The position numbers and the translations under genes were made by a program. The notes under the pieces are model-generated. The model saw only the letters and a list, made by a program, of their open reading frames with translations. It searched no databases and was not told the origin of the DNA. Positions 21,659 through 32,099 of a stretch of 48,429 nucleotides of DNA are shown one piece after another (within the stretch, counting starts at the first letter, position 1; every line of letters starts with the position of its first letter). The stretch comes from Mariniblastus sp. (GTDB lineage Bacteria; Planctomycetota; Planctomycetia; Pirellulales; Pirellulaceae): positions 1 to 48,429 of the forward strand of contig JAQWLH010000061.1 in NCBI GenBank assembly GCA_029247405.1, given 5' to 3'.

Positions 21659-23065
21659 TCACTCTTTTTCTTCGACGCCCGTAAGGTCAATCTTGTCCGG
21701 TAATGCATCTAAGATTTTTTGGCCGTGGCTTTTTTGGCGACGGTCAACGACTCGGTAATACCCGATCAGTATCGCGACTCCCACGATCAGCATGCTCATG
21801 AAAACTAGCAAAATAAAGTTTAACTGGCCCTCCTGCGACTCAATGGTTGTCGCCGTCTTTGCCATGATCAATGGGCTTACTTGGCCAGACGTGCCAGCAG
21901 TGTCAGTCAGATCAGACTGGTATTTCCAGAAGCGGTAAAAGAAGCCATCGACAACTAATGGCTTGCGTTCGACGTCTTGGGCAGTCATGCCTTCTGGAAG
22001 TTCCAAACAACAGACCGTGATTGGAAAACGGCGATACTCAAGATCTTCACCTGATTTGTTTTTGACAACGACTTTTCCTCCGTCGAGGTCGGGAAACATC
22101 ATCAGTTGAAAATACTTTGAAACTCCTAGTCTCTGTTTGATGTCAGGATTTGAAATGAAGACTTCCGTCGCGCTGCGTACCACTCCCTTGATTTTGGCCT
22201 GATCACCAAAATTTGACTTTGCATTCTTCATTAGATCAGAAAAATTTAGGGGACTCGACGGAGCATCGTCGGCGGGGATCTTCTCCATCGCAGCAATCAT
22301 CTGGAAGAAGGCTTCTGAGTCGCGATCACCAAGTCGTTGCGTGTTGCTCTCTTCGACCCGATCTAACAGGCCAATGTCGACGCCGGCACTGGCGAGTTTT
22401 ACGTGAGAGCGAGTTGCGATGTCAGCTTGCGCTACGGCGGGGAACCAGGCGATTCGGTCAACGATAAGCACGGTTGACGGCGTTGCTTCTTCATTTGTCT
22501 CTTTTGCTCTTGCGTACAAAAAGCCGCTAATACCGATCGGTTCATCGAGTTTCGTATCGATCCTGATTTTTCGCGGTATCGTTCTTGAAAGTACCGTCAC
22601 GGATTGCTGTAGTTCGTTTTCACATTCGCAGATGAAAACCCCCTTGATCGGCGCTTCAGCTTCGGCCTCTGCAAAACGGTGCTTGGTGACCTTTTTGAGC
22701 GTAAGCCGTCGTTGAAATACCCAGCATCGAAATTCTTCGGGGGTCGTGGCGATTTTGTCCCACGTGACATTCTTGGAGTGAATTGCAAATTTACTGCGGC
22801 TTTTTGGCGAAGTTTTTTTGATCCGATAAAGCAGTTTAACGATGTTGGGATTATTAATATCTAGTGGCGCGTCGTCTTTGATTTCGTAAGCTTCGCTCGG
22901 AGAGTATCCAGAGAGTTCGAGTGGAGTCAGGTCGTGGATTTGGGCTTTGGCGGATGTCGCGCCGCTCATTCCCCCAAGGGCAGTCAGGATTGCAAATGCC
23001 AAAATGACGCGCCAAGCGGATCTTGGGCTTTCAAAGGATTGGTTGAATATTAACTTTTTAATCAT
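21659..23065 (-). CDS. Single-pass membrane protein with two repeated beta-rich domains
   Basis: A 468-residue exported protein of no known family. It starts at the ATG at 23065, with CGGAG eight bases before it, and overlaps the upstream gene by eight bases, so translation is coupled. Residues 1-42 form a signal peptide (ILAFAILTALGGMSGATSAKA). Two related domains follow, at about 95-210 and 290-408. In the second, VCCLELPEGM and LVVDGFFYRFWKYQS match ELPEGFPKL and VSIDGYFFKLRTYVA of the upstream gene; in the first, FICECENEL and IGISGFLYARA occupy the same places. An OB-like fold is possible but unproved. A C-terminal membrane helix (418-437) anchors it, leaving a short charged cytoplasmic tail. 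The pair probably acts together. Confidence 0.75.
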   Translation of the reverse strand: MIKKLIFNQSFESPRSAWRVILAFAILTALGGMSGATSAKAQIHDLTPLELSGYSPSEAYEIKDDAPLDINNPNIVKLLYRIKKTSPKSRSKFAIHSKNVTWDKIATTPEEFRCWVFQRRLTLKKVTKHRFAEAEAEAPIKGVFICECENELQQSVTVLSRTIPRKIRIDTKLDEPIGISGFLYARAKETNEEATPSTVLIVDRIAWFPAVAQADIATRSHVKLASAGVDIGLLDRVEESNTQRLGDRDSEAFFQMIAAMEKIPADDAPSSPLNFSDLMKNAKSNFGDQAKIKGVVRSATEVFISNPDIKQRLGVSKYFQLMMFPDLDGGKVVVKNKSGEDLEYRRFPITVCCLELPEGMTAQDVERKPLVVDGFFYRFWKYQSDLTDTAGTSGQVSPLIMAKTATTIESQEGQLNFILLVFMSMLIVGVAILIGYYRVVDRRQKSHGQKILDALPDKIDLTGVEEKE

Positions 23066-24596
23066 GAGGCGACTCCGACATTCCAGCAATATCTTCGTTT
23101 TCATACAGAGCCATTATTTTTTCTTGATCAGTTTGAACACGCGGGTCTGATTTTAGATCACCGAGTGTCTGAGTGATCTTGATTGAGGTCTTTCCTCCGG
23201 GGCGGTAAGGGCGGGTTCTTGAGAATCGGAACACCCACCAAGCGATGCCCGTAGCAATGAGGGGCATCAGGAAAAACGCAAAAATTAATGTTGTGCGACT
23301 AGGTTGCCAATTCCCAACATCCAGGAATTCTTCTGGTGCGATTCGAGTTAGTCGCGACGCTAAAACCACAGGGCCCACTTTTACGGCCTTGTCGGCCGCC
23401 ACGTAGGTCCGAAGCTTAAAGAAGTAGCCATCGATAGAGACCTGTTCGTTTAAGTCCTGAAACTGTTCAGACAGCTTCGGGAATCCCTCGGGTAACTCGT
23501 GAGCGTAGACACAATAGATTCCGAGCTTAGTTTCTTTGGGTCGAACCCACAGAGTGTATTGCTCAGACAGTGCCAATTCACTGTTTTCCTTGAGGCGGTT
23601 TTTGCGAGCCGAGCGAACCCAGCCTTCAATCGTGATCGGTTTGCCACGGTAATACCCGGGTTGGCTCATCAATTGGATGTTGCTTGCTGATTCAAATTCG
23701 GGCATTTCTGTTTCAAGTTTTTGCCCTACTACTTTTTCCCACAAGCGGTTCCATCCGGCTGAGTCGCCGGCCCAGCCAATGGCGGTCTTGTCCTCGACTT
23801 GTTCCAGAAGAATCGGATCAATCGCATTTTGTAATTGGTGGATGGCTCGAAGCTGGGAAAGCGTAAAGTCTTCTCCACTTGCTGCCGCAGTCAGGGCTGG
23901 GAAAACTTTCTTGTCCCAAATCGCCTGTGAGTCAAAAAGGCCCGTTGTGAGTTGTTTTTTACTGGGGTTGTCCGAAGAAAGGGCAACCTGATCAAACAGT
24001 TGCTGGTGGAAGCGATCACGATTTTTGCCGAGAGAGACAATGAGTTCTTGGCATGATTGCTGTTGCTCCGGTAAGACGCGTTTGCCATCTCGCATGGTCC
24101 GAAGCAACTTTAGAAAGGTTTTTTGTTGTGTCGGGTTCATTTTTCGAAAGACGGAACGCCAAAAATCGGCAGCGACTTTTGGGTAATTTGAATCCTCATC
24201 CGACAACAAAATCATGGAGTCGTAATCGGGGGTGACTTGGGAGATCGTGCTTGCTGTCTGGTGGCCTTGGGAGGAGGGGGGATTTGGATTGTTCTTGGTT
24301 AATGGGGCGATCGAGACAGCTTCTGAGTCAGGACGGGTACCCACTTCTGGATCCGCGGCATCATTGGCCTTTGGCCGGACAGTTGGTTGGGATTGATCGA
24401 ATCCCATCCACTCCCACCTCTCTGGTTTGCCCGCTTCATGCATCGCGACAATGACCATCAGTAGCATTGCCACGAGCGTCAGGATACGAAACCCCAGCCC
24501 ACCCGATGATTTTCGCATCGGTGGGACGATCGATTTTGGCCGAATAGGCTCATCCAAATGTTCGTCAAGTTCGTCTGAGGTTGGTTCGTTTTTCAT
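23058..24596 (-). CDS. Two-span membrane protein related to its downstream neighbour
   Basis: A 512-residue membrane protein of unknown family, translationally coupled to the 468-residue gene (overlap 23058-23065). Residues 1-35 are charged and cytoplasmic, and a membrane anchor is at 36-52. A Pro/Ser/Asn-rich linker (70-120) is followed by a helical region (135-300). A domain at about 310-420 shares with the neighbour a pattern of YRGKPITIEGWVRSA, YCVYAHELPEGF, VSIDGYFFKLRTYVA and VVLASRLTRI. A second membrane helix lies at 437-457, followed by a tail with TQTLGDLKSDPRVQTDQEK. The large middle part is therefore in the periplasm. No catalytic motif is visible. Its start is divergent from the repeat-protein/ExbB/ExbD unit, suggesting a shared regulatory region. 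Confidence 0.75.
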   Translation of the reverse strand: MKNEPTSDELDEHLDEPIRPKSIVPPMRKSSGGLGFRILTLVAMLLMVIVAMHEAGKPERWEWMGFDQSQPTVRPKANDAADPEVGTRPDSEAVSIAPLTKNNPNPPSSQGHQTASTISQVTPDYDSMILLSDEDSNYPKVAADFWRSVFRKMNPTQQKTFLKLLRTMRDGKRVLPEQQQSCQELIVSLGKNRDRFHQQLFDQVALSSDNPSKKQLTTGLFDSQAIWDKKVFPALTAAASGEDFTLSQLRAIHQLQNAIDPILLEQVEDKTAIGWAGDSAGWNRLWEKVVGQKLETEMPEFESASNIQLMSQPGYYRGKPITIEGWVRSARKNRLKENSELALSEQYTLWVRPKETKLGIYCVYAHELPEGFPKLSEQFQDLNEQVSIDGYFFKLRTYVAADKAVKVGPVVLASRLTRIAPEEFLDVGNWQPSRTTLIFAFFLMPLIATGIAWWVFRFSRTRPYRPGGKTSIKITQTLGDLKSDPRVQTDQEKIMALYENEDIAGMSESPHD

Positions 24597-24884
24597 CGTT
24601 GGTAACCAATGCAGCTAGAGCCGTTGGGAAATACTCAAACTTTGTCGGGCAAAGCCAACATTTTGCCCACGGCGGTCGATATTGGTATTAAAATATAGTC
24701 AGAGTTTCCACTTCCAAAATCTTACAAGCTGTTTTTGGCTTAATTTTGCTTTCGGATTCCAATCTTTTTTTATCGGCGATTGTTTTAACGGCGGGTGTAG
24801 TTAAAAATAGTTTTGCGAATCGTTGTAAAAAAACCAGTAGAACGATCTGGTTTTCGGGAATATCCAACTGAAGGACGGCGTGTA
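24597..24884. promoter_or_regulatory. Divergent regulatory region with a candidate + strand promoter
   Basis: These 288 AT-rich bases separate the membrane-protein pair (-) from the repeat-protein operon (+). A TTGCCC at 24663-24668, 17 bases, then TATTAA at 24686-24691 is a plausible + strand promoter, giving a leader of about 190 bases. No - strand promoter was clear. Confidence 0.35.
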
Positions 24885-27800
24885 GTGTTGAGACTTTCTT
24901 TCTTGTTTGCCATGTTTACGGGGCTTTGCCTGTCCATTCCGAGCCTAAAGGCGGAAGAGCCGGCGCAAATGTTTCTTGAGGCCCTTCGGGATAACGGTTA
25001 TTACGACGTCGCGATTGAATATCTGGATAGCCTTGAATCGAGCGATTTGATTTCGGATGAATTTCGCAGTTCGCTACCGTTTGAAAAGGCTGAAACGCTA
25101 ATCGGTAGCACGCAGCGAGTTCGTGACTTGGAGGTGATTGAGTCTCGACTGGACCAAGCTCAAAAGCTTCTCACCGATTATGCCTCAAAAAACCAATCGC
25201 TTGAAGTCAGTGCACGAACCCTTCGTTACCAGGGCAACCTGCTTTACCAGCGCTCTAACATCTATCTCACTCAGGCCAAAGCTGACCGGGCGACTGAGAG
25301 CGAAAAAAATGTTTTGCGAGCAAAAGCGAGGACGATGCTTGAGCAATCTCAGTCCAGCTACATTAAAGCAAGAGACCAGCTTAAAAGGCTACTGGACCCG
25401 ACCAGTCCAGATGCGATTAAAATTGATGCCCAAGCTGGTTTTGCTGAGGCGAGCAAACGCAACATCAAACGATTACAAACGGGGTACACACAAGTCCGCC
25501 TAAGATTGCCGATGGTGACCGAGCAGCTTGCAGACACTTACCCGCAGGGTGATCCAACTGGTAAAAAATTGCTCACCGACGCAGCGAAGCTTTACAGCGA
25601 CGTATACGATGACTATCGACGGTTTCATTCAGGTCTCAAGGCTTGTGTGTATTCGGCAAGGTGTCAGCAGAAATTGGGCAATCCCAAGCCCGCTCTTGAC
25701 TTGTTGGCTGAGATATTTGAATTGGGAAACAACTCCTCAATTAAATCTTTAAAATTGGAGGCTTATGTTCTGGCGGCCGAGTGCTGGAGCAGTATGAAGC
25801 CTTATCCCCATGTCGAAGTTGTGAAACGTCTCGACCCAGCAGTTGGTGTCCTCAACCGTATCGAGGTGCGAAAGCCTGACTGGCTTCGGGTGCAGCTTGA
25901 GCTTGCAATTGGGAAACACGCCCAAGCGGCGGCCGTTAAGGCGAAAGGCGGCCCTAAAGCAAACAAGAATTCTGGCGAGATTGATCGTGCGGCTGCGAAA
26001 CTCCTTCGCAGTGTAGCGCGTGTTCCCAGTCCCTATCGGGAAAAGGCCCGCGAGCTACTAATCGAATGGGATGTGTCGCTGTCGAACGTTGCCGATGCAA
26101 GTGCGGCGCCCCCCAAGACCTTTGGGGATGCTCGGCAAAAAGCGAAAGATATTATTTCGGAGATTGAGCTGACTGCTGGAGGAGCCAATGAACTTCGCCG
26201 AGAATTTAAAAGTGAAAAGGATGAAGCGAAAAAGTCAGCGCTTCAATCGCAACTAGCTGAGGCTGATGCGGGCGTCCTCTCGCAAGCCGAGGCTGCATTG
26301 GAAATGTTAAACCTGGCCTTAGGGTTGCAGGATGACTCAACGGTCCGCGCTGATATCAATAACATTCGTTATTTGCAGTGTTATTGTTACTTCGCGTCGC
26401 GTCAATATTTTGAGGCTGCTTTGATTGGTGAATATTTGCTTGCCAAGTATCCCAGTGTTTCTGGCACCCAGCAAGCGATGTCGCTAATGATTCAGAGTTA
26501 TTCAAGTTTGCTTGATTCAGCCAAGGAGGCAGAGCGGAAATTTGAAATTAGCCGATTGACTGCTGCTGCTGACGAAGTCATCGCACGCTGGCCGGGCTCG
26601 AGTGAATCGGGGATCGCAGCCAGTACAATGACAAGGTTGGCAATTAACACGAAAGACTTCAAGGCGGCAGAAAAGTATTTGTTGCAAATTCCTAGCGGTT
26701 CGAGTTATCGAAATGCGTTGGCCGTTCGTGTTGGTCAGAGAATGTGGTTGGACGTAAAAGCAAAGATGACAGCCGGTGATGAACCCTCTTCCTATCAAAA
26801 GCAGTTGGTCAACGCCAAGAACTTCATGGCAGACGGTGTCTCCAACGCCTCTCTAGACACTCTAGATTATGAAACCGCGCTAGGCGCGTTGATGTTAGTC
26901 GATGCCTACCTTGTCACGAACGAGACGGATCAAGCTGTTCGCCAACTTGAAACCGCCGCCATTGCGCCGTTGGATTTGGTCAAGCAAAAACACCCCGCAA
27001 TCATGAGGACCTCCTCGCCGGGAATCTATTCTCGTGAGACGTATCGTGTTGCCATGAAGGTCTACCTTGCGGCAATGAAAAGTAGTGCTGACAAACAAAA
27101 GTGGATTACCAAAGCACAGGGTGTGATCTCTCGAATGCGTCAAGATATGCAGCAAAGTAACGATCCCAAGGATCGGAACCGGGTGACTGTGATCTACCGT
27201 ATGATAGCCAAGCAACTAAAGAGTGATTTTGACTCTCTCAGTTCCCAAGAAGAAAAGAGAACGTTTGCGGGATCACTGGTAGCATTTTTAAGCTCAATTT
27301 CTGAAGATTCGAAAGATCCAAAAACCATTCTCTGGGCCGGTTCGACACTTCGAGTTGTTGGCGATTCGTTATTGGAATCAGGATTGGTGGTTGACGCCAA
27401 GCCTTTTTTCAAGAAATCAGTTGAGGCCTTAAACAAAGCTGAAAAGATTGGTTTCGCCGATGATCCTCAATTGGCCGAAATGACGACCGGTTTAAAACGT
27501 GAGCGGGCTCTTTCTCAACGCGGGGCCGGAAACTTCGAGGTCGCTATCGATCAGCTTGCTGAGATTTTGAAAGAGAATTCAAATGCGATCAATATTCAGA
27601 TCGATGCCAGTATGAGTCTGCAGGCGTGGGCTAAAGCGACTCAACGGCAAAAGACCTATGTCGAAGCGACCAAGGGGGCTCGGAGCTACAAGAATCCGAA
27701 AACGAAGCGAAATACGAAGCTAATTTGGGGCTGGGAAAAGATCGCTTTGGCCACTCGCAAGAACCCCAAATATAGATCGACGTACTATGAAGCGCTTTAT

Positions 27801-27974
27801 CATGTTGCTGAATGTCGATTGGAATACGGTATCTTGGCGAAAAACTCAGGTGCCATTAAGTCTGCTGGGAACGAGATTACCAAAGAACGTGAGCGTGATC
27901 CCACCTTTGCCGGAATGGCGAAGTGGAAGCAAAAGTTTGAGGAGCTTGAGTCCCGGATTAACGCGGCAAAATAA
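24885..27974 (+). CDS. Large exported helical-repeat (TPR-like) protein
   Basis: A protein of 1029 residues when started at the GTG at 24885, which has AAGGA nine bases upstream and gives a standard signal peptide (LRLSFLFAMFTGLCLSIPSLKA). The frame stays open to a TTG at 24813, which would put 24 basic residues before the signal. The mature protein is almost wholly alpha-helical, with many TPR/SEL-like pairs, e.g. AEEPAQMFLEALRDNGYYDV, ASRQYFEAALIGEYLLAKYP, NFEVAIDQLAEILKENSNAI. A charged insertion lies near residues 430-465. It probably is a periplasmic or outer-membrane-associated scaffold. It leads an operon with a second repeat protein, an ExbB-like channel and two ExbD-like proteins, so it may couple proton-driven motion to an envelope complex. 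No enzymatic motif is present. Confidence 0.8.
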   Translation: MLRLSFLFAMFTGLCLSIPSLKAEEPAQMFLEALRDNGYYDVAIEYLDSLESSDLISDEFRSSLPFEKAETLIGSTQRVRDLEVIESRLDQAQKLLTDYASKNQSLEVSARTLRYQGNLLYQRSNIYLTQAKADRATESEKNVLRAKARTMLEQSQSSYIKARDQLKRLLDPTSPDAIKIDAQAGFAEASKRNIKRLQTGYTQVRLRLPMVTEQLADTYPQGDPTGKKLLTDAAKLYSDVYDDYRRFHSGLKACVYSARCQQKLGNPKPALDLLAEIFELGNNSSIKSLKLEAYVLAAECWSSMKPYPHVEVVKRLDPAVGVLNRIEVRKPDWLRVQLELAIGKHAQAAAVKAKGGPKANKNSGEIDRAAAKLLRSVARVPSPYREKARELLIEWDVSLSNVADASAAPPKTFGDARQKAKDIISEIELTAGGANELRREFKSEKDEAKKSALQSQLAEADAGVLSQAEAALEMLNLALGLQDDSTVRADINNIRYLQCYCYFASRQYFEAALIGEYLLAKYPSVSGTQQAMSLMIQSYSSLLDSAKEAERKFEISRLTAAADEVIARWPGSSESGIAASTMTRLAINTKDFKAAEKYLLQIPSGSSYRNALAVRVGQRMWLDVKAKMTAGDEPSSYQKQLVNAKNFMADGVSNASLDTLDYETALGALMLVDAYLVTNETDQAVRQLETAAIAPLDLVKQKHPAIMRTSSPGIYSRETYRVAMKVYLAAMKSSADKQKWITKAQGVISRMRQDMQQSNDPKDRNRVTVIYRMIAKQLKSDFDSLSSQEEKRTFAGSLVAFLSSISEDSKDPKTILWAGSTLRVVGDSLLESGLVVDAKPFFKKSVEALNKAEKIGFADDPQLAEMTTGLKRERALSQRGAGNFEVAIDQLAEILKENSNAINIQIDASMSLQAWAKATQRQKTYVEATKGARSYKNPKTKRNTKLIWGWEKIALATRKNPKYRSTYYEALYHVAECRLEYGILAKNSGAIKSAGNEITKERERDPTFAGMAKWKQKFEELESRINAAK

Positions 27975-28037
27975 CTTTGAAAGTTTTGACGCCTCTCATT
28001 TTAACAGTCACAAAACAAGAGCAATTGAACTAACGCA

Positions 28038-29111
28038 ATGGTAGCTTACCCCACGAATCAAATGCAAAAAACGGTCTTCGGTCTGCGTCTTCTAACTCCC
28101 GGAATTGTGGTTTTGGTCTTTGGCCTAATCGCAACGATTACCCATGCTCAAGATGCCGTTTACAAGTATCGAGACGGCGGCCGGACGTCGAAAGTTAGTG
28201 GGAAAATCAGTGATGTTACACCCAATGGCGTGACAATTGGTGGGGCTGAAATTGCCGCCTTCGAAATCAAAAAGGTCATCTATGGTAAAGAGCCAACGGA
28301 GGTTGAACGCGCCCGAAGTCAAATGGAATCAGGTCGATTTGCAGACGCGATAGAAGAGTTGGGGAAAATCCCTAATCGTCTTCCCAAACCGATTCAGGAG
28401 GAGGTTGACTTTATCAAAGCTTTTTCGAACTCGCAGATTTCGCTTCGAGGCGGCAATGTGACACCCAAGGTTGCTGCCAGCGAGGTCAAGTCTTTCATTG
28501 AAGCGCATCCAACGAGTTTCCATTTATTTCCGATGATCGACCAGTTTGCCAAACTGGCTTTTGCTGCTGGGATTCCCAACGTTGCTGAGACGGAATTTAA
28601 GAAACTCAAGAGTGCGACGTGGCCAGAGTTTAAACTCAAAGGGCTGTTCAATGCTGGGCAAATGCAGATCGAACTGGGGAAATTAGCAGAGGCCAAGGCT
28701 TCTTTTGAAGCGATCCAAGCAATTGAGTCCAACGACGATCTTACGCAAACTTACAAGTTGCTGTCGGACTGCGAATTGGCCCGTTTGGTCGGGCTTCAGG
28801 GGGATGCCGTTGCTGCTCAAAAGGCACTGGAGAAGATCATTAAGGATGAGAACCCGGACAACAAAAAGTTATTCGCCCATCTATATAACGCACTAGGCTC
28901 GGTACATGAGAAGGCGGATCGAAAAAAAGAAGCTGCCAGAGCTTATTTGCACACAGAATTGCTTTTTGCGTCTGAATCAGAGGCGCACGCGGAGGCCGTC
29001 TACCGATTGGCTAAGATTTGGCCCTTGCTCGAAGAGACCGATCGTGCGAACCGAGCGAGAGAAACGATCAAAACCCGTTATCGCAACTCATATTGGGCCA
29101 CAAAACTATAA
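28038..29111 (+). CDS. Exported TPR-like protein
   Basis: A 357-residue protein with an N-terminal signal peptide or anchor (residues 9-38, ending ITHAQ). A short beta-rich part follows (RTSKVSGKISDVTPNGVTIG), resembling the small module that often precedes TPRs in planctomycete exported proteins. From residue 90 the protein is helical repeats, including ERARSQMESGRFADAIEELG, FNAGQMQIELGKLAEAKASF and NALGSVHEKADRKKEAARAY, which fit TPR spacing. It lies 63 bases after the large repeat protein gene and about 155 bases before the ExbB-like gene, consistent with one operon. It is probably periplasmic and a partner of the larger protein. No specific function can be assigned. Confidence 0.8.
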   Translation: MVAYPTNQMQKTVFGLRLLTPGIVVLVFGLIATITHAQDAVYKYRDGGRTSKVSGKISDVTPNGVTIGGAEIAAFEIKKVIYGKEPTEVERARSQMESGRFADAIEELGKIPNRLPKPIQEEVDFIKAFSNSQISLRGGNVTPKVAASEVKSFIEAHPTSFHLFPMIDQFAKLAFAAGIPNVAETEFKKLKSATWPEFKLKGLFNAGQMQIELGKLAEAKASFEAIQAIESNDDLTQTYKLLSDCELARLVGLQGDAVAAQKALEKIIKDENPDNKKLFAHLYNALGSVHEKADRKKEAARAYLHTELLFASESEAHAEAVYRLAKIWPLLEETDRANRARETIKTRYRNSYWATKL

Positions 29112-29267
29112 CGTTCGGTCTAAATGGAACGTCGAATGCATGTAACCTCATTCGGTGGGTATCGAGTGCGTTGGGGCAGGTTACAATTAGAGGCACGCCG
29201 CTGCTGACTTTGAACAACCTTCATCAACTAAATCAACCTTACATACAAAGCCTTGGAGACTGTCGTT

Positions 29268-30113
29268 ATGCAGTTAATTGAACTGTCAACCCTTTGCGAG
29301 TCGAATTCATCGACTGGCTGGCTACCCCGGTTTTCCCGCCCGACTTCTTTGCTACTGACATTCGCGATTGTGTTCGTTGCCTTTTCGCTGACGATGCCAG
29401 GATTCGATTCAGGCTCATCACTCGTTGCACAAGAAGCGGCTGCCGCCGCTGGCGGAGCCGCGGAGAACGCGTCGCCGGAAGAGGAGTCGCTGCTTGGTTG
29501 GTTGGTCGGCTCGCTCGGATGGGGCTACATCCTGTTGTTCCTATCGCTCTCATTTATCCTCGTCGCTTTGTTTATTATGAATCTGCTCTCGGCACGGCGT
29601 GAGTACGTTTGTCCGCAGCATTTGGTTGATGGAATCGAAGCCCATTTTGACGAAAAGCAATATCAAGAAGCTTATGAGCTCGCCAAAACGGATGAATCGT
29701 TTCTCGGCAACGTGCTTGCGTCAGGTTTGGCAAGACTAACAACTGGTTACGACCATGCGGTGGGGGCGATGCAGGAAGTTGGTGCTGAAGAAAACATGAA
29801 GCTCGATCACCGCTTGAGCTACCTCGCTTTGATTGGAACCATTAGCCCAATGATTGGCCTGTTTGGGACGGTTCACGGCATGATTCGTTCGTTCTATACG
29901 ATCGCCAATGGTGGAGGTACACCGGATCCAAACAAGCTGGCTGAGGGGATTTCGACTGCGTTACTGACCACTTTGATTGGTCTGGCGATCGCCATTCCAG
30001 CGATTGCAGCTTACAACATCCTTCGTAACCGGGTTCAGAAATTGGTGCTCGAAGTTGGTATCACCAGCGAAAATCTGATGGGACGATTTGAAAAAGTCGG
30101 TAAAAAAGAGTGA
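29268..30113 (+). CDS. MotA/TolQ/ExbB-family proton channel protein
   Basis: A 281-residue inner-membrane protein. The ATG at 29268 has GGAG nine bases upstream; a TTG at 29253 is also in frame. An N-terminal signal-like segment (SLLLTFAIVFVAFSLTMPGF) and an Ala-rich linker precede the first ExbB helix (GYILLFLSLSFILVALFIMN). The cytoplasmic loop follows, then the diagnostic block LSYLALIGTISPMIGLFGTV with HGMIRSF, and the third helix ALLTTLIGLAIAIPAIAAYN. These give the usual three-helix ExbB/TolQ topology. With ExbD-like partners it would form a proton-driven motor in the inner membrane. The additional N-terminal membrane segment is common in planctomycete and Bacteroidetes members. No TonB, TolA, TolB or Pal gene is near. 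Confidence 0.92.
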   Translation: MQLIELSTLCESNSSTGWLPRFSRPTSLLLTFAIVFVAFSLTMPGFDSGSSLVAQEAAAAAGGAAENASPEEESLLGWLVGSLGWGYILLFLSLSFILVALFIMNLLSARREYVCPQHLVDGIEAHFDEKQYQEAYELAKTDESFLGNVLASGLARLTTGYDHAVGAMQEVGAEENMKLDHRLSYLALIGTISPMIGLFGTVHGMIRSFYTIANGGGTPDPNKLAEGISTALLTTLIGLAIAIPAIAAYNILRNRVQKLVLEVGITSENLMGRFEKVGKKE

Positions 30114-30159
30114 CTTGCACTACTTGTTTTTGTCCAACCAAGTTTCTTTTGCTGTTGAT

Positions 30160-30609
30160 ATGAAATTTACCAAACACCAAAGAGTTGAGATTCTCGAGGG
30201 CGATTTGACGCCCATGATCGATATGACGTTTCAATTGATCGCGTTCTTTATGCTGTTGATCAATTTTTCAGAAGTCGATCGGGCCGAAGAGATCACGCTG
30301 CCCAGTAGTGTGCTCGCGGTGGCACCCGAAGTTCGTCCTGACTACCAGATTATTTTGAATCTTGAACCCAGCGGAAAGGTCAAGTTCGAAGGGCAGGAGT
30401 TCGATCAGATTGACATGCTCGGTCCAATTTTCCGCAAGGAAATCAGCGCTGCTGCTCGTGAAGACGTAACGAATCCCGGTGACATCGCTGTGATCATTCG
30501 CTCCCACGAAGATACGCCAACGGGGTTGGTGCAAGACCTGATTGCCAAGTGTCAGGAGGAGTCGTTGGAAAGTTTCAGTCTCAGAGTCAAAGAGCAAGTT
30601 CGAAGGTAG
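30160..30609 (+). CDS. ExbD/TolR-family protein 1
   Basis: A 149-residue protein starting at the ATG at 30160 (MKFTKHQRVEILEGDLTPMI). The frame is open to a TTG inside the exbB-like gene, but that would add an unrelated leader. The family core is present: LTPMIDMTFQLIAFFMLLIN, in which the Asp of the MID motif is the proton-carrying residue. A periplasmic domain follows, of the ExbD type, with DIAVIIRSHEDTPTGLVQDL near its end. It would pair with the channel protein just upstream and with the second ExbD nine bases downstream. The ribosome site is weak. Confidence 0.9.
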   Translation: MKFTKHQRVEILEGDLTPMIDMTFQLIAFFMLLINFSEVDRAEEITLPSSVLAVAPEVRPDYQIILNLEPSGKVKFEGQEFDQIDMLGPIFRKEISAAAREDVTNPGDIAVIIRSHEDTPTGLVQDLIAKCQEESLESFSLRVKEQVRR

Positions 30610-30618
30610 GAGATTGTT

Positions 30619-31110
30619 ATGCGATTGAAGGAAACCGAACCCGAAGAGATCAAGCTGAATATGACCGCGATGATTGATATCGTGTTTCAGCTATTGGTTT
30701 TTTTCATCATGACTTTCAAGGTGGTTGCGATGGAAGGCGATTTTAATATTCGCATGCCTTTGGCCAGCCAAAACCAGGAAGAGTCGATGGACGAGGATTT
30801 TCCGACAATCATTTACGTCCAACTCGCCGCCGGCACCAATGGAAATATTAACAGTATCATTGTCGATGACGATACAACTTTTTCTGACACTGATATGTAT
30901 TCCAAACTAACTCAGTTGGTCGAGTCTAAAATTGCGGCCGAAGGCAATCCAGAAGACTCCAAAGAGACCGAGGTTGAGTTCGATATCGCGCGAGAACTCA
31001 AGTATTCCTACACCGTCAAAGCAATTGAAGCGGTTTCCGGTAAAGTGGTGGATGGCCAAATTAAAAAGCTGATCCAAAAGATCAAGTTTAAAGACAGTAC
31101 CAGCTTTTAA
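30619..31110 (+). CDS. ExbD/TolR-family protein 2
   Basis: A 163-residue ExbD/TolR protein, nine bases after the first one and with a strong AGGAGA ribosome site. Its core is LNMTAMIDIVFQLLVFFIMT with the conserved Asp in the membrane helix, followed by a periplasmic domain. It differs from the first copy in carrying an acidic insertion (QNQEESMDEDFPT, then a Lys/Glu-rich region ending KAIEAVSGKVVDGQ). Two non-identical ExbD proteins with one ExbB are common in planctomycetes and Bacteroidetes. It ends the operon. Confidence 0.92.
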   Translation: MRLKETEPEEIKLNMTAMIDIVFQLLVFFIMTFKVVAMEGDFNIRMPLASQNQEESMDEDFPTIIYVQLAAGTNGNINSIIVDDDTTFSDTDMYSKLTQLVESKIAAEGNPEDSKETEVEFDIARELKYSYTVKAIEAVSGKVVDGQIKKLIQKIKFKDSTSF

Positions 31111-31199: not shown

Positions 31200-32099
31200 T
31201 CAATCGTTCTCAAGTTCTTCATCGTGACTGACGGTGCGCACCGGGCCTGATTTGAAGTCGTCAGAAGTTAGGAGCGAGGGGGCTGACTTCGGGTCGAATT
31301 TTTCGAGTCGCTTAAACACGAATGGCTGGCCGTAGGGAATGAACTTGGCGGGACTTTTTTTATTGCCGGATTTTGATTTTCCTGCCAAGCTCTCGGGGGT
31401 TATTTGCTCGAATGTTGGAGGGGGAGGTATCTCTTGGCCGGCAAAGCGAGTTCCTTCATGGATGGTGCCCTGTTGGAATGGCCCAGCTCCGAAGTACCAA
31501 GTATTGCGACTCGTGCTTTCGGCCTTGGCGACGCCGGATTGCCAGATCGCTTCACGCGATGAACTGTCGTAGGCAAACACAATGACTTTTGCGATCCCTG
31601 TCTGCGCGTTGCTTTTTCCCAAAGAGATTTCGGGGATGGGAGGAAGCGGCGAACTTGAAAATGCGGCTGCTGCACTGGCAAGTGAACCCGATTGTGGTAT
31701 CCCATAGACGACTTCGTGACCATCAGTGCCGAGGGCGCCGACTCTTGGCTCCACAATCACATCAGCCGTCTCAACGGATTCTTGAATTAAGCAATGGGCT
31801 GCTGTTAATTGTTGTCGGAGTGAGCTGATGATGTAATCCGAGTTGACAAATCCAGCTCCCTTAATCGGCTTTAAGTAAGTCGTTTCGATGAATACTTTGC
31901 GGCTCTGCAAAACTCGAAAATCAATTTGAGAGATTGCATTATCAACCGCGTCTGACATAAGCAGTTGTTCAGTCGCAGTCCGGGTGGTTGTTGTTCCACA
32001 ACCGACCAAGTTAACCAGCCCCATGGCGAACAATATCGCGCAGGTTGAGCCGAGCCGTAAACGGAATCCAGTGAAGATTGAATTTTGGAAGTAGTTCAT
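31200..32099 (-). CDS. Lipoprotein of unknown function (DUF6655-like, tentative)
   Basis: A 299-residue protein with a lipoprotein signal: a basic start, hydrophobic stretch (CAILFAMGLVNLVG) and lipobox LVGC with Cys34. The next residues, TTTTRTATEQLLMSDAVDNA, and the block FRVLQSRKVFIETTYLKPIK resemble a planctomycete lipoprotein family that I associate with DUF6655, without a search to confirm it. A GSLASAAAAFSSSPLPPIPE linker and an AKVIVFAYDSSSREAIWQSG strand region follow, then a Lys/Pro-rich end. It would be attached to the inner leaflet of the outer membrane or inner membrane facing the periplasm. It stands alone and converges on the ExbD gene. No catalytic motif is visible. Confidence 0.75.
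   Translation of the reverse strand: MNYFQNSIFTGFRLRLGSTCAILFAMGLVNLVGCGTTTTRTATEQLLMSDAVDNAISQIDFRVLQSRKVFIETTYLKPIKGAGFVNSDYIISSLRQQLTAAHCLIQESVETADVIVEPRVGALGTDGHEVVYGIPQSGSLASAAAAFSSSPLPPIPEISLGKSNAQTGIAKVIVFAYDSSSREAIWQSGVAKAESTSRNTWYFGAGPFQQGTIHEGTRFAGQEIPPPPTFEQITPESLAGKSKSGNKKSPAKFIPYGQPFVFKRLEKFDPKSAPSLLTSDDFKSGPVRTVSHDEELEND

Follow-up and report, generated by a model that had tools for sequence, protein, structure and literature searches.

Ton, Tol, flagellar, gliding and secretion systems are all known to use motors of the ExbB/ExbD kind. The question raised here is which machine is served by such a motor in the planctomycete Mariniblastus sp., where it is encoded between positions 21,659 and 31,110 of contig JAQWLH010000061.1 (assembly GCA_029247405.1); the window is the whole stretch analysed, 48,429 nucleotides in length. 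Five plus-strand genes, referred to below as the block, encode two exported helical-repeat proteins, TPRL and TPRS (TPR, tetratricopeptide repeat), a channel subunit, ExbB, and two ExbD-type subunits, while two related membrane proteins, memA and memB, are encoded divergently. We propose, with a probability of roughly 0.4, that the motor serves a PilM/secretin-type machine to which it is not linked in the window's class. What is new is that in distant relatives the motor block continues from genes for TPR-containing secretins, which suggests an envelope-crossing machine. The openly licensed PubMed Central literature yielded nothing relevant on secretin, ExbD and planctomycetes together, a result which does not show absence from print. 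The genes are as follows.

21659..23065, minus strand: memB, membrane protein with two predicted OB-like (oligonucleotide/oligosaccharide-binding) beta domains and a C-terminal membrane helix (open reading frame, AlphaFold2 model)
23058..24596, minus strand: memA, paralogue of memB with N- and C-terminal membrane spans (open reading frame, hhalign)
24885..27974, plus strand: TPRL, large exported helical-repeat protein (open reading frame, AlphaFold2, homologues)
28038..29111, plus strand: TPRS, exported TPR protein (open reading frame, TPR_6 E 2.9e-6)
29268..30113, plus strand: ExbB/TolQ/MotA-type channel subunit with an N-terminal extension (PF01618 E 2.1e-30)
30160..30609, plus strand: ExbD1, ExbD/TolR-type subunit with the membrane Asp (PF02472 E 8.5e-16)
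30619..31110, plus strand: ExbD2, second and different ExbD/TolR-type subunit with the membrane Asp (PF02472 E 7e-13)

The evidence which carries the proposal comes from outside the window's class. Among TPRL matches there (taken to E 1e-8 with a single row for each gene, leaving out G291:C96 and G130:C98, which match other parts of the protein), 13 of 64 TPRL places were set aside, their genomes having no secretin row among the matches listed; these include G174, whose row is not N-terminal. (Loci and genomes are cited by our own L and G numbers.) In 28 of the 51 remaining places, a same-strand TPR-secretin match among those listed ends no more than 1.5 kb before the start of the TPRL match; on the same terms the linkage is found in 28 of 49 genomes, spread over 17 families. 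Seventeen loci from outside the class, hand-picked for long contigs and strong matches so that fractions among them are not rates for the phylum, were then read gene by gene. Sixteen contain ExbB and at least two ExbD genes (the ExbB of L178 is cut by the contig end) and one, L177, has none of them. A co-directional TPR-secretin precedes in eight (L179, L180, L182, L183, L186, L187, L188 and L195), all of them with genes for TPRS, ExbB and two or more ExbD proteins downstream; the link between secretin and TPRL therefore extends to the motor. Gene order over 17 families is good evidence that secretin and TPRL are functionally linked outside the class.

In five of the eight linked loci the secretin is itself preceded by a PilM-like gene and one or two genes for single-span proteins. 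The order PilM, N1, O1, secretin, TPRL, TPRS, ExbB, ExbD, ExbD is found at L179, L183/L245 and L188, and L180 and L186/L246 share the array from PilM to ExbD with no recognisable O1. At L188 the families PF11104 (E 3.8e-27) and PF00263 (E 5.1e-26) are matched, and TIGR01175 scores above its cut-off. The PilM profile runs on into PilN (PDB 3jc8 PilN, E 3.4e-4), so that the PilM-like gene outside the class may encode a PilM-PilN fusion. As a separate observation, the ten co-directional genes at L245:2653-19593 include two for TPR-secretins, one on either side of the motor block, and a second secretin lies downstream at L246 and L247.

Within the class, the components of the proposed machine are largely retained. 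PilM is present in 55 of 60 genomes, and the two single-span neighbours were recognised as open reading frames in 8 of 10 PilM loci read; the secretin is encoded near PilM or elsewhere in the genome. Profiles built within and outside the class match each other strongly by hhalign, both for PilM (E 1.4e-71) and for the secretin (E 3.8e-76). Furthermore, each of the 39 other genomes in the phylum sample that belong to the family, order or class is matched by the secretin profile with an E of 7.2e-107 or better. PilM was not found in the window's own genome, in G004, G006 and G012 (these four being 77-87% complete) or in G038, which is 99% complete. Beside the PilM cluster, a large protein encoded divergently from it recurs at L232:2685-5573 and, as similar genes, at several of L228-L242; the L232-type protein starts near 'PCHSLEDFP' and has a weak match to glycosyl hydrolase 38.

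Several observations weigh against this reading. Outside the class, 23 of the 51 TPRL places have no secretin upstream among the matches listed, motor genes were read in 8 of the 28 linked places and are assumed to lie downstream in the other 20, and a different order, ExbB-ExbD-ExbD followed by an OB protein and with TPRL last, is seen at L174-L176, L178 and L190 (the OB protein of L175 was not recognised at the cut-off used). Within the class no linkage of PilM or secretin to the block was seen, and the single-span neighbours match only weakly across classes (hhalign probability 72 and 92). Co-occurrence alone says little, because 390 of the 392 genomes sampled from the phylum have a match to the secretin profile at E<=1e-3. 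The window's own genome, 84% complete, is without PilM, and its best secretin match (1.6e-46) is read as belonging to other secretins. Likewise G004, the closest relative by TPRL (80% complete), has no PilM, and in G038 the block and the OB pair persist in its absence. Finally, two genomes (G053 and G054) carry TPRL and TPRS without an ExbB of block strength, a third, G434, being in between.

Whatever the motor drives, its genes form a unit that is conserved well beyond the window. TPRL homologues are present in 58 of the 60 genomes, the window's own included (G014 and G051 are without one). Forty loci hand-picked from TPRL matches for long contigs and strong matches, together with the window, make up 41 loci, among which fractions are again not phylum rates. 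In 36 of them all five genes stand in the order TPRL-TPRS-ExbB-ExbD-ExbD; two of the others are cut by contig ends (L045, L057) and three lack motor genes (L053, L056, L066). The adjacent gene for a DUF6655 protein is matched in just one of the same 41, and the association of the five genes thus goes beyond chance. Seven of ten further class loci also have the complete block, whilst L169, L170 and L171 have TPRL-TPRS alone. A scan of named genomes with TPRL alone gave no match; a scan with the ExbB alignment supplied 80 further loci, the best 80 of 574 relatives. The resulting 131 loci were merged by ExbB end into 115 unique loci. Wherever a unique locus has a full TPRL (104 loci), TPRS comes next, and of the 89 loci with 4.5 kb of room 82 have the whole block, a fraction biased upward because 80 of the 131 loci were found through ExbB. 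Block-strength ExbB genes also occur elsewhere in the genome in G047, G146 and G423, and G033 has a second full copy of the block. Across the phylum the TPRL profile matches 192 of 392 genomes, including all 40 of the same family, order and class (own included), the matches in other classes being mostly N-terminal and weaker. The preliminary description, which was made from the sequence of the window, had made its proposal of a distinct system depend on co-conservation across planctomycetes. For the five plus-strand genes this is what was found, in a form that has diverged in other classes.

ExbB matches MotA_ExbB (PF01618, E 2.1e-30) and both ExbD proteins match ExbD (PF02472, E 8.5e-16 for ExbD1 and 7e-13 for ExbD2), so that the domains expected of ExbB/TolQ-ExbD/TolR motors are present together with the membrane Asp, which is invariant both in ExbD1, in an alignment of 16 rows, and in ExbD2. 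The two ExbD proteins share 16% identity. The earlier account of a TolQ-type channel with two different TolR-type subunits is therefore borne out by these matches and the alignment. In a tree of ExbB sequences the block's ExbB forms one clade (support 98/94), to which the window's order contributes 19 rows and the remainder of the class 7, and the four paralogues from the window's own genome that could be placed fall outside it. The ExbBs of L190 and L211 pair together and form a joint clade with that of the block (100/99). Left out of the tree were L082 and L083, for want of a profile match, and the two E. coli rows, whose domain was too short; where the long-branched L081, L080, L221 and L078 belong is uncertain. 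The genome, which is 84% complete and consists of 302 contigs, the 48 kb window being one of them, has seven MotA_ExbB places, and the motor in the window is therefore one of several. A further motor locus in this genome, L080:4162-13325, has, besides ExbB and a single ExbD, a TPR protein of 1146 residues and another protein of 1305 residues.

Both repeat proteins begin with a hydrophobic stretch. In Pfam TPRL has only sub-threshold TPR matches; AlphaFold2, however, models it (mean pLDDT 89.5) as an all-alpha solenoid into which a single beta hairpin (955-972) is set, and its Foldseek matches are generic helical solenoids; TPRS matches TPR_6 above the cut-off (E 2.9e-6). Together these results uphold the earlier description of two exported helical-repeat proteins. 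All seven open reading frames of the candidate system lie in the window's list where they had been described. From our reading of that list and of the upstream sequence, TPRL would start at GTG 24885, preceded by AAGGA (the list had TTG 24813), giving the 1029 residues originally reported. Likewise ExbB would start at ATG 29268, with GGAG at 29255-29258, ExbD1 at ATG 30160 and memB at ATG 23065, the latter overlapping the memA stop by 8 bases. Promoter-like matches are rarer than in shuffled sequences, and terminator-like matches are about equally frequent. A single transcription unit for the plus-strand genes, argued from spacing and strand, is neither shown nor contradicted. Beyond ExbD2, and convergent with the block, the minus strand encodes the DUF6655 protein (E 1.4e-67) at 31200-32099, which has a signal-like start.

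Taken together, the following mechanism may be envisaged. The plus-strand genes would encode an ExbB/ExbD-type motor, presumably proton-driven, in which the two different ExbD subunits together probably form the axle. Instead of TonB or TolA, the motor would act in the periplasm on the two TPR proteins, with which it would be in contact. Providing force to an envelope-crossing PilM/secretin-type machine is the most likely job for it, because the module often follows a TPR-secretin gene outside the class; the secretin might be gated, for example, or cargo driven through it. Contact between motor, TPR proteins and secretin, and the persistence of the link in the window's own lineage, would both have to hold. 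In the window's class the motor and secretin halves are encoded apart, with an OB-fold membrane pair divergent beside the motor in much of the order. Extension of the secretin link to the window appeals to homology. The fuller statement, on which we are rather more inclined to doubt than to belief, is that Planctomycetota possess a secretin machine on a PilM-type platform driven by ExbB-ExbD1-ExbD2 via TPR solenoids, and not only by cytoplasmic ATPases, the window holding the motor half together with a lineage-specific OB pair. A motor kept through the class without TolB and often without TonB, with a secretin as its commonest neighbour elsewhere, would point to a new use of such motors. It would also bear on how planctomycetes energise the periplasm and outer membrane, and the analysis yields a small gene set open to deletion and purification in a tractable species.

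The alternative that survives best, although it is unlikely, is a substitute for Tol-Pal, in which the motor and TPR proteins would anchor the outer membrane or draw it inwards during division, or stabilise the envelope, independently of any secretin. The near-universal occurrence of TPRL in relatives fits such a housekeeping role, as does the absence of TolB_N (PF04052) from all 16 genomes searched, the E. coli, Caulobacter and Bacteroides controls all giving a match. TPRS, meanwhile, has sub-threshold similarity to YbgF-type and BamD-type TPR families. However, a lipobox-like pattern of our own devising was matched in 1 of 117 TPRL and 0 of 120 TPRS homologue rows (duplicates counted), and the commonest partner outside the class is a secretin. 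In its main text, a paper on essential genes of Planctopirus limnophila (PMC10632474) uses none of the terms Exb, Tol or TPR and, in the parts consulted, makes no statement on the block's genes; a paper on Verrucomicrobium is likewise without the terms looked for in it.

The divergent membrane pair invites another explanation, that in the window's class the motor has become detached from a secretin machine that it served ancestrally, and forms an envelope system of its own with the OB-fold proteins; this we consider distinctly unlikely. Neither memA nor memB has a significant match in Pfam or NCBIfam. The two families are paralogues (hhalign probability 99.7, E 2.6e-27 over 160 columns), confirming that the pair is related. 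The AlphaFold2 model of memB (mean pLDDT 87.8) has strands within 117-205 and 290-408 and a helix at 413-455. Its best Foldseek hits (E 4.1e-7) are to SSB and POT1 with low TM-scores, and a fold comparison gave VIA Z values up to 7.6, graded middling by the tool. memB is thus modelled as two OB-like domains, with modest OB scores, and a membrane helix; from its match to memB, memA would have one OB-like domain. The matched OB-fold proteins bind nucleic acids, a shared fold which shows no function. Two hydrophobic spans are present in 66 of 76 memA homologue rows, and the N-terminal one is unlike a TonB/TolA anchor, because the SxxxH pattern occurs in just 1 of 63 rows.

The case for such a separate system lies in gene order. 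Of the 81 unique loci with 5 kb of room, 59 have memA, memB or the two together divergent from TPRL (53 have the two), G038 retains block and pair without PilM, and L190 and L211, whose ExbBs lie beside the block's clade, have an OB protein after ExbB-ExbD-ExbD in the same direction. These two loci tie the OB family to motors of this type without recourse to the window itself. At L174, L176, L211 and L190 an OB-fold protein comes after the two or three ExbD genes of a motor operon. Against it, an OB protein stands beside the block in only 1 of 10 class loci outside the window's order (L172), and PilM and secretin are retained in nearly all these genomes. memA-type matches are found in 40 of 40 genomes of the family, order and class (own included), the genes lying away from TPRL where this was checked, in G107, G349, G430, G211 and G052, the last of the window's own order. 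With these counts, the pair's place in the preliminary description as a fixed member of the system does not stand.

A third alternative, which we hold to be improbable, draws on loci of PVC (Planctomycetes-Verrucomicrobia-Chlamydiae) bacteria in which a TPR-tolQ-tolR-tolR set accompanies von Willebrand factor A (vWA) transducers, the vWA part being likened to YfbK in the portion of the work considered here (PMC12204202). The block would be a relative of these force-transducers, its moving vWA partner having been lost or being encoded elsewhere in the genome. Motor composition is the same in the loci described there, and in 19 unique loci TPRL is directly preceded on its own strand by a gene for a single-span vWA/YfbK_C protein (104 unique loci have TPRL, 87 of these with 3 kb upstream); at L057:3350-5596 this protein matches VWA_2 at E 4.3e-13. 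The block is thus partly foreshadowed by those published loci, as far as they were consulted, and 'undescribed', the word first applied to the system, was too strong. However, no vWA gene adjoins the block in the window or in the remaining TPRL loci, nor is there an SHLS-type helix protein beside the window's motor; memA adjoins TPRL there, and an ECF (extracytoplasmic function) sigma gene is likewise missing. All 8 displayed membrane spans of the upstream vWA proteins lack SxxxH, unlike the SHLS motif reported for the published transducers (PMC12204202, in the part seen). The vWA/YfbK-type protein upstream of TPRL has a cytoplasmic part and could be a regulator or partner of the block.

The window's own genome does hold a vWA gene in a motor setting. 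At L079:5470-8332 three genes stand in a row, encoding a vWA protein whose membrane start is TonB-like (LLSLLLH), a TPRS-like protein and an ExbB, and L079 is likely a member of the published transducer loci. Its ExbB falls in another clade from that of the block, and a search with its vWA protein found none in 152 loci; the L079 and upstream vWA types are therefore distant. ECF sigma genes, which often precede the vWA gene, lie within 4.5 kb upstream of TPRL in 23 loci. Counted anywhere in the stretches around the 115 loci, the frequent flanking families are of integrase/XerC type (51), malate/lactate-dehydrogenase type (36) and ECF-sigma type (31), followed by a 162-residue protein without a Pfam match (28), an esterase type (27) and a PrmC type (25). 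A cluster from 101 loci, nearly all of it opposite in strand to the block, was read as antisense open reading frames and disregarded.

Lastly, an ordinary Ton system with TonB encoded elsewhere deserves almost no weight and is largely refuted for the window's genus: TonB_C (PF03544) and Plug occur in 5 and 6 of the 16 genomes, but in none of the nine tested from the genus (four, own included) and from family f21 (five), seven of which keep the block at TPRL (G018 and G083 fall outside this reading), and TonB, where present, is more than 370 kb from TPRL. The original remark that no TonB is encoded with the motor extends to relatives, in which neither TonB nor TolB is a regular partner, the searches having covered TonB_C and TolB_N and not TolA or Pal; neither a TonB C-terminal domain partner nor TolB places the block in the Ton or Tol-Pal systems.

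A number of parallels can nevertheless be drawn with known systems. With Ton the block shares an ExbB/ExbD-type motor, and differs in the lack of TonB_C in the four genomes of the genus and in its TPR solenoid partners. Tol-Pal likewise combines a TolQ/TolR-type motor with a periplasmic TPR protein; here, by contrast, there is no TolB_N and there are two TolR-type proteins. In the Agl-Glt gliding and Nfs machinery of Myxococcus, too, TPR partners accompany a TolQ-type subunit and two of TolR type, a likeness to the window's motor in subunit composition. The vWA loci resemble the block in their TPR gene, one TolQ-like gene and two heterologous TolR-like genes (PMC12204202, in the part seen). 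They differ in that the vWA gene is downstream there and upstream here, where the spans seen have no SHLS-type pattern. The window's system adds a second, very large TPR protein and the OB-fold pair, and secretin linkage goes unmentioned in that paper's section on these loci. Finally, the arrays outside the class recall the type IV pilus alignment complex, from PilM to PilQ, and the Amuc_1098/Amuc_1101 protein families in Akkermansia, where Amuc_1098 is a TPR secretin of 907 residues and, in the part of the report consulted, the most prominent outer-membrane protein (PMC4960237). The points in common are a PilM-like gene and a secretin of similar size with N-terminal TPRs, although the array proteins score far below the cut-offs of the Amuc families; no pilin or pilus ATPase was noticed in the arrays, for which no profile search was made. 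What sets the arrays apart from the alignment complex is that TPRL-TPRS-ExbB-ExbD-ExbD follows.

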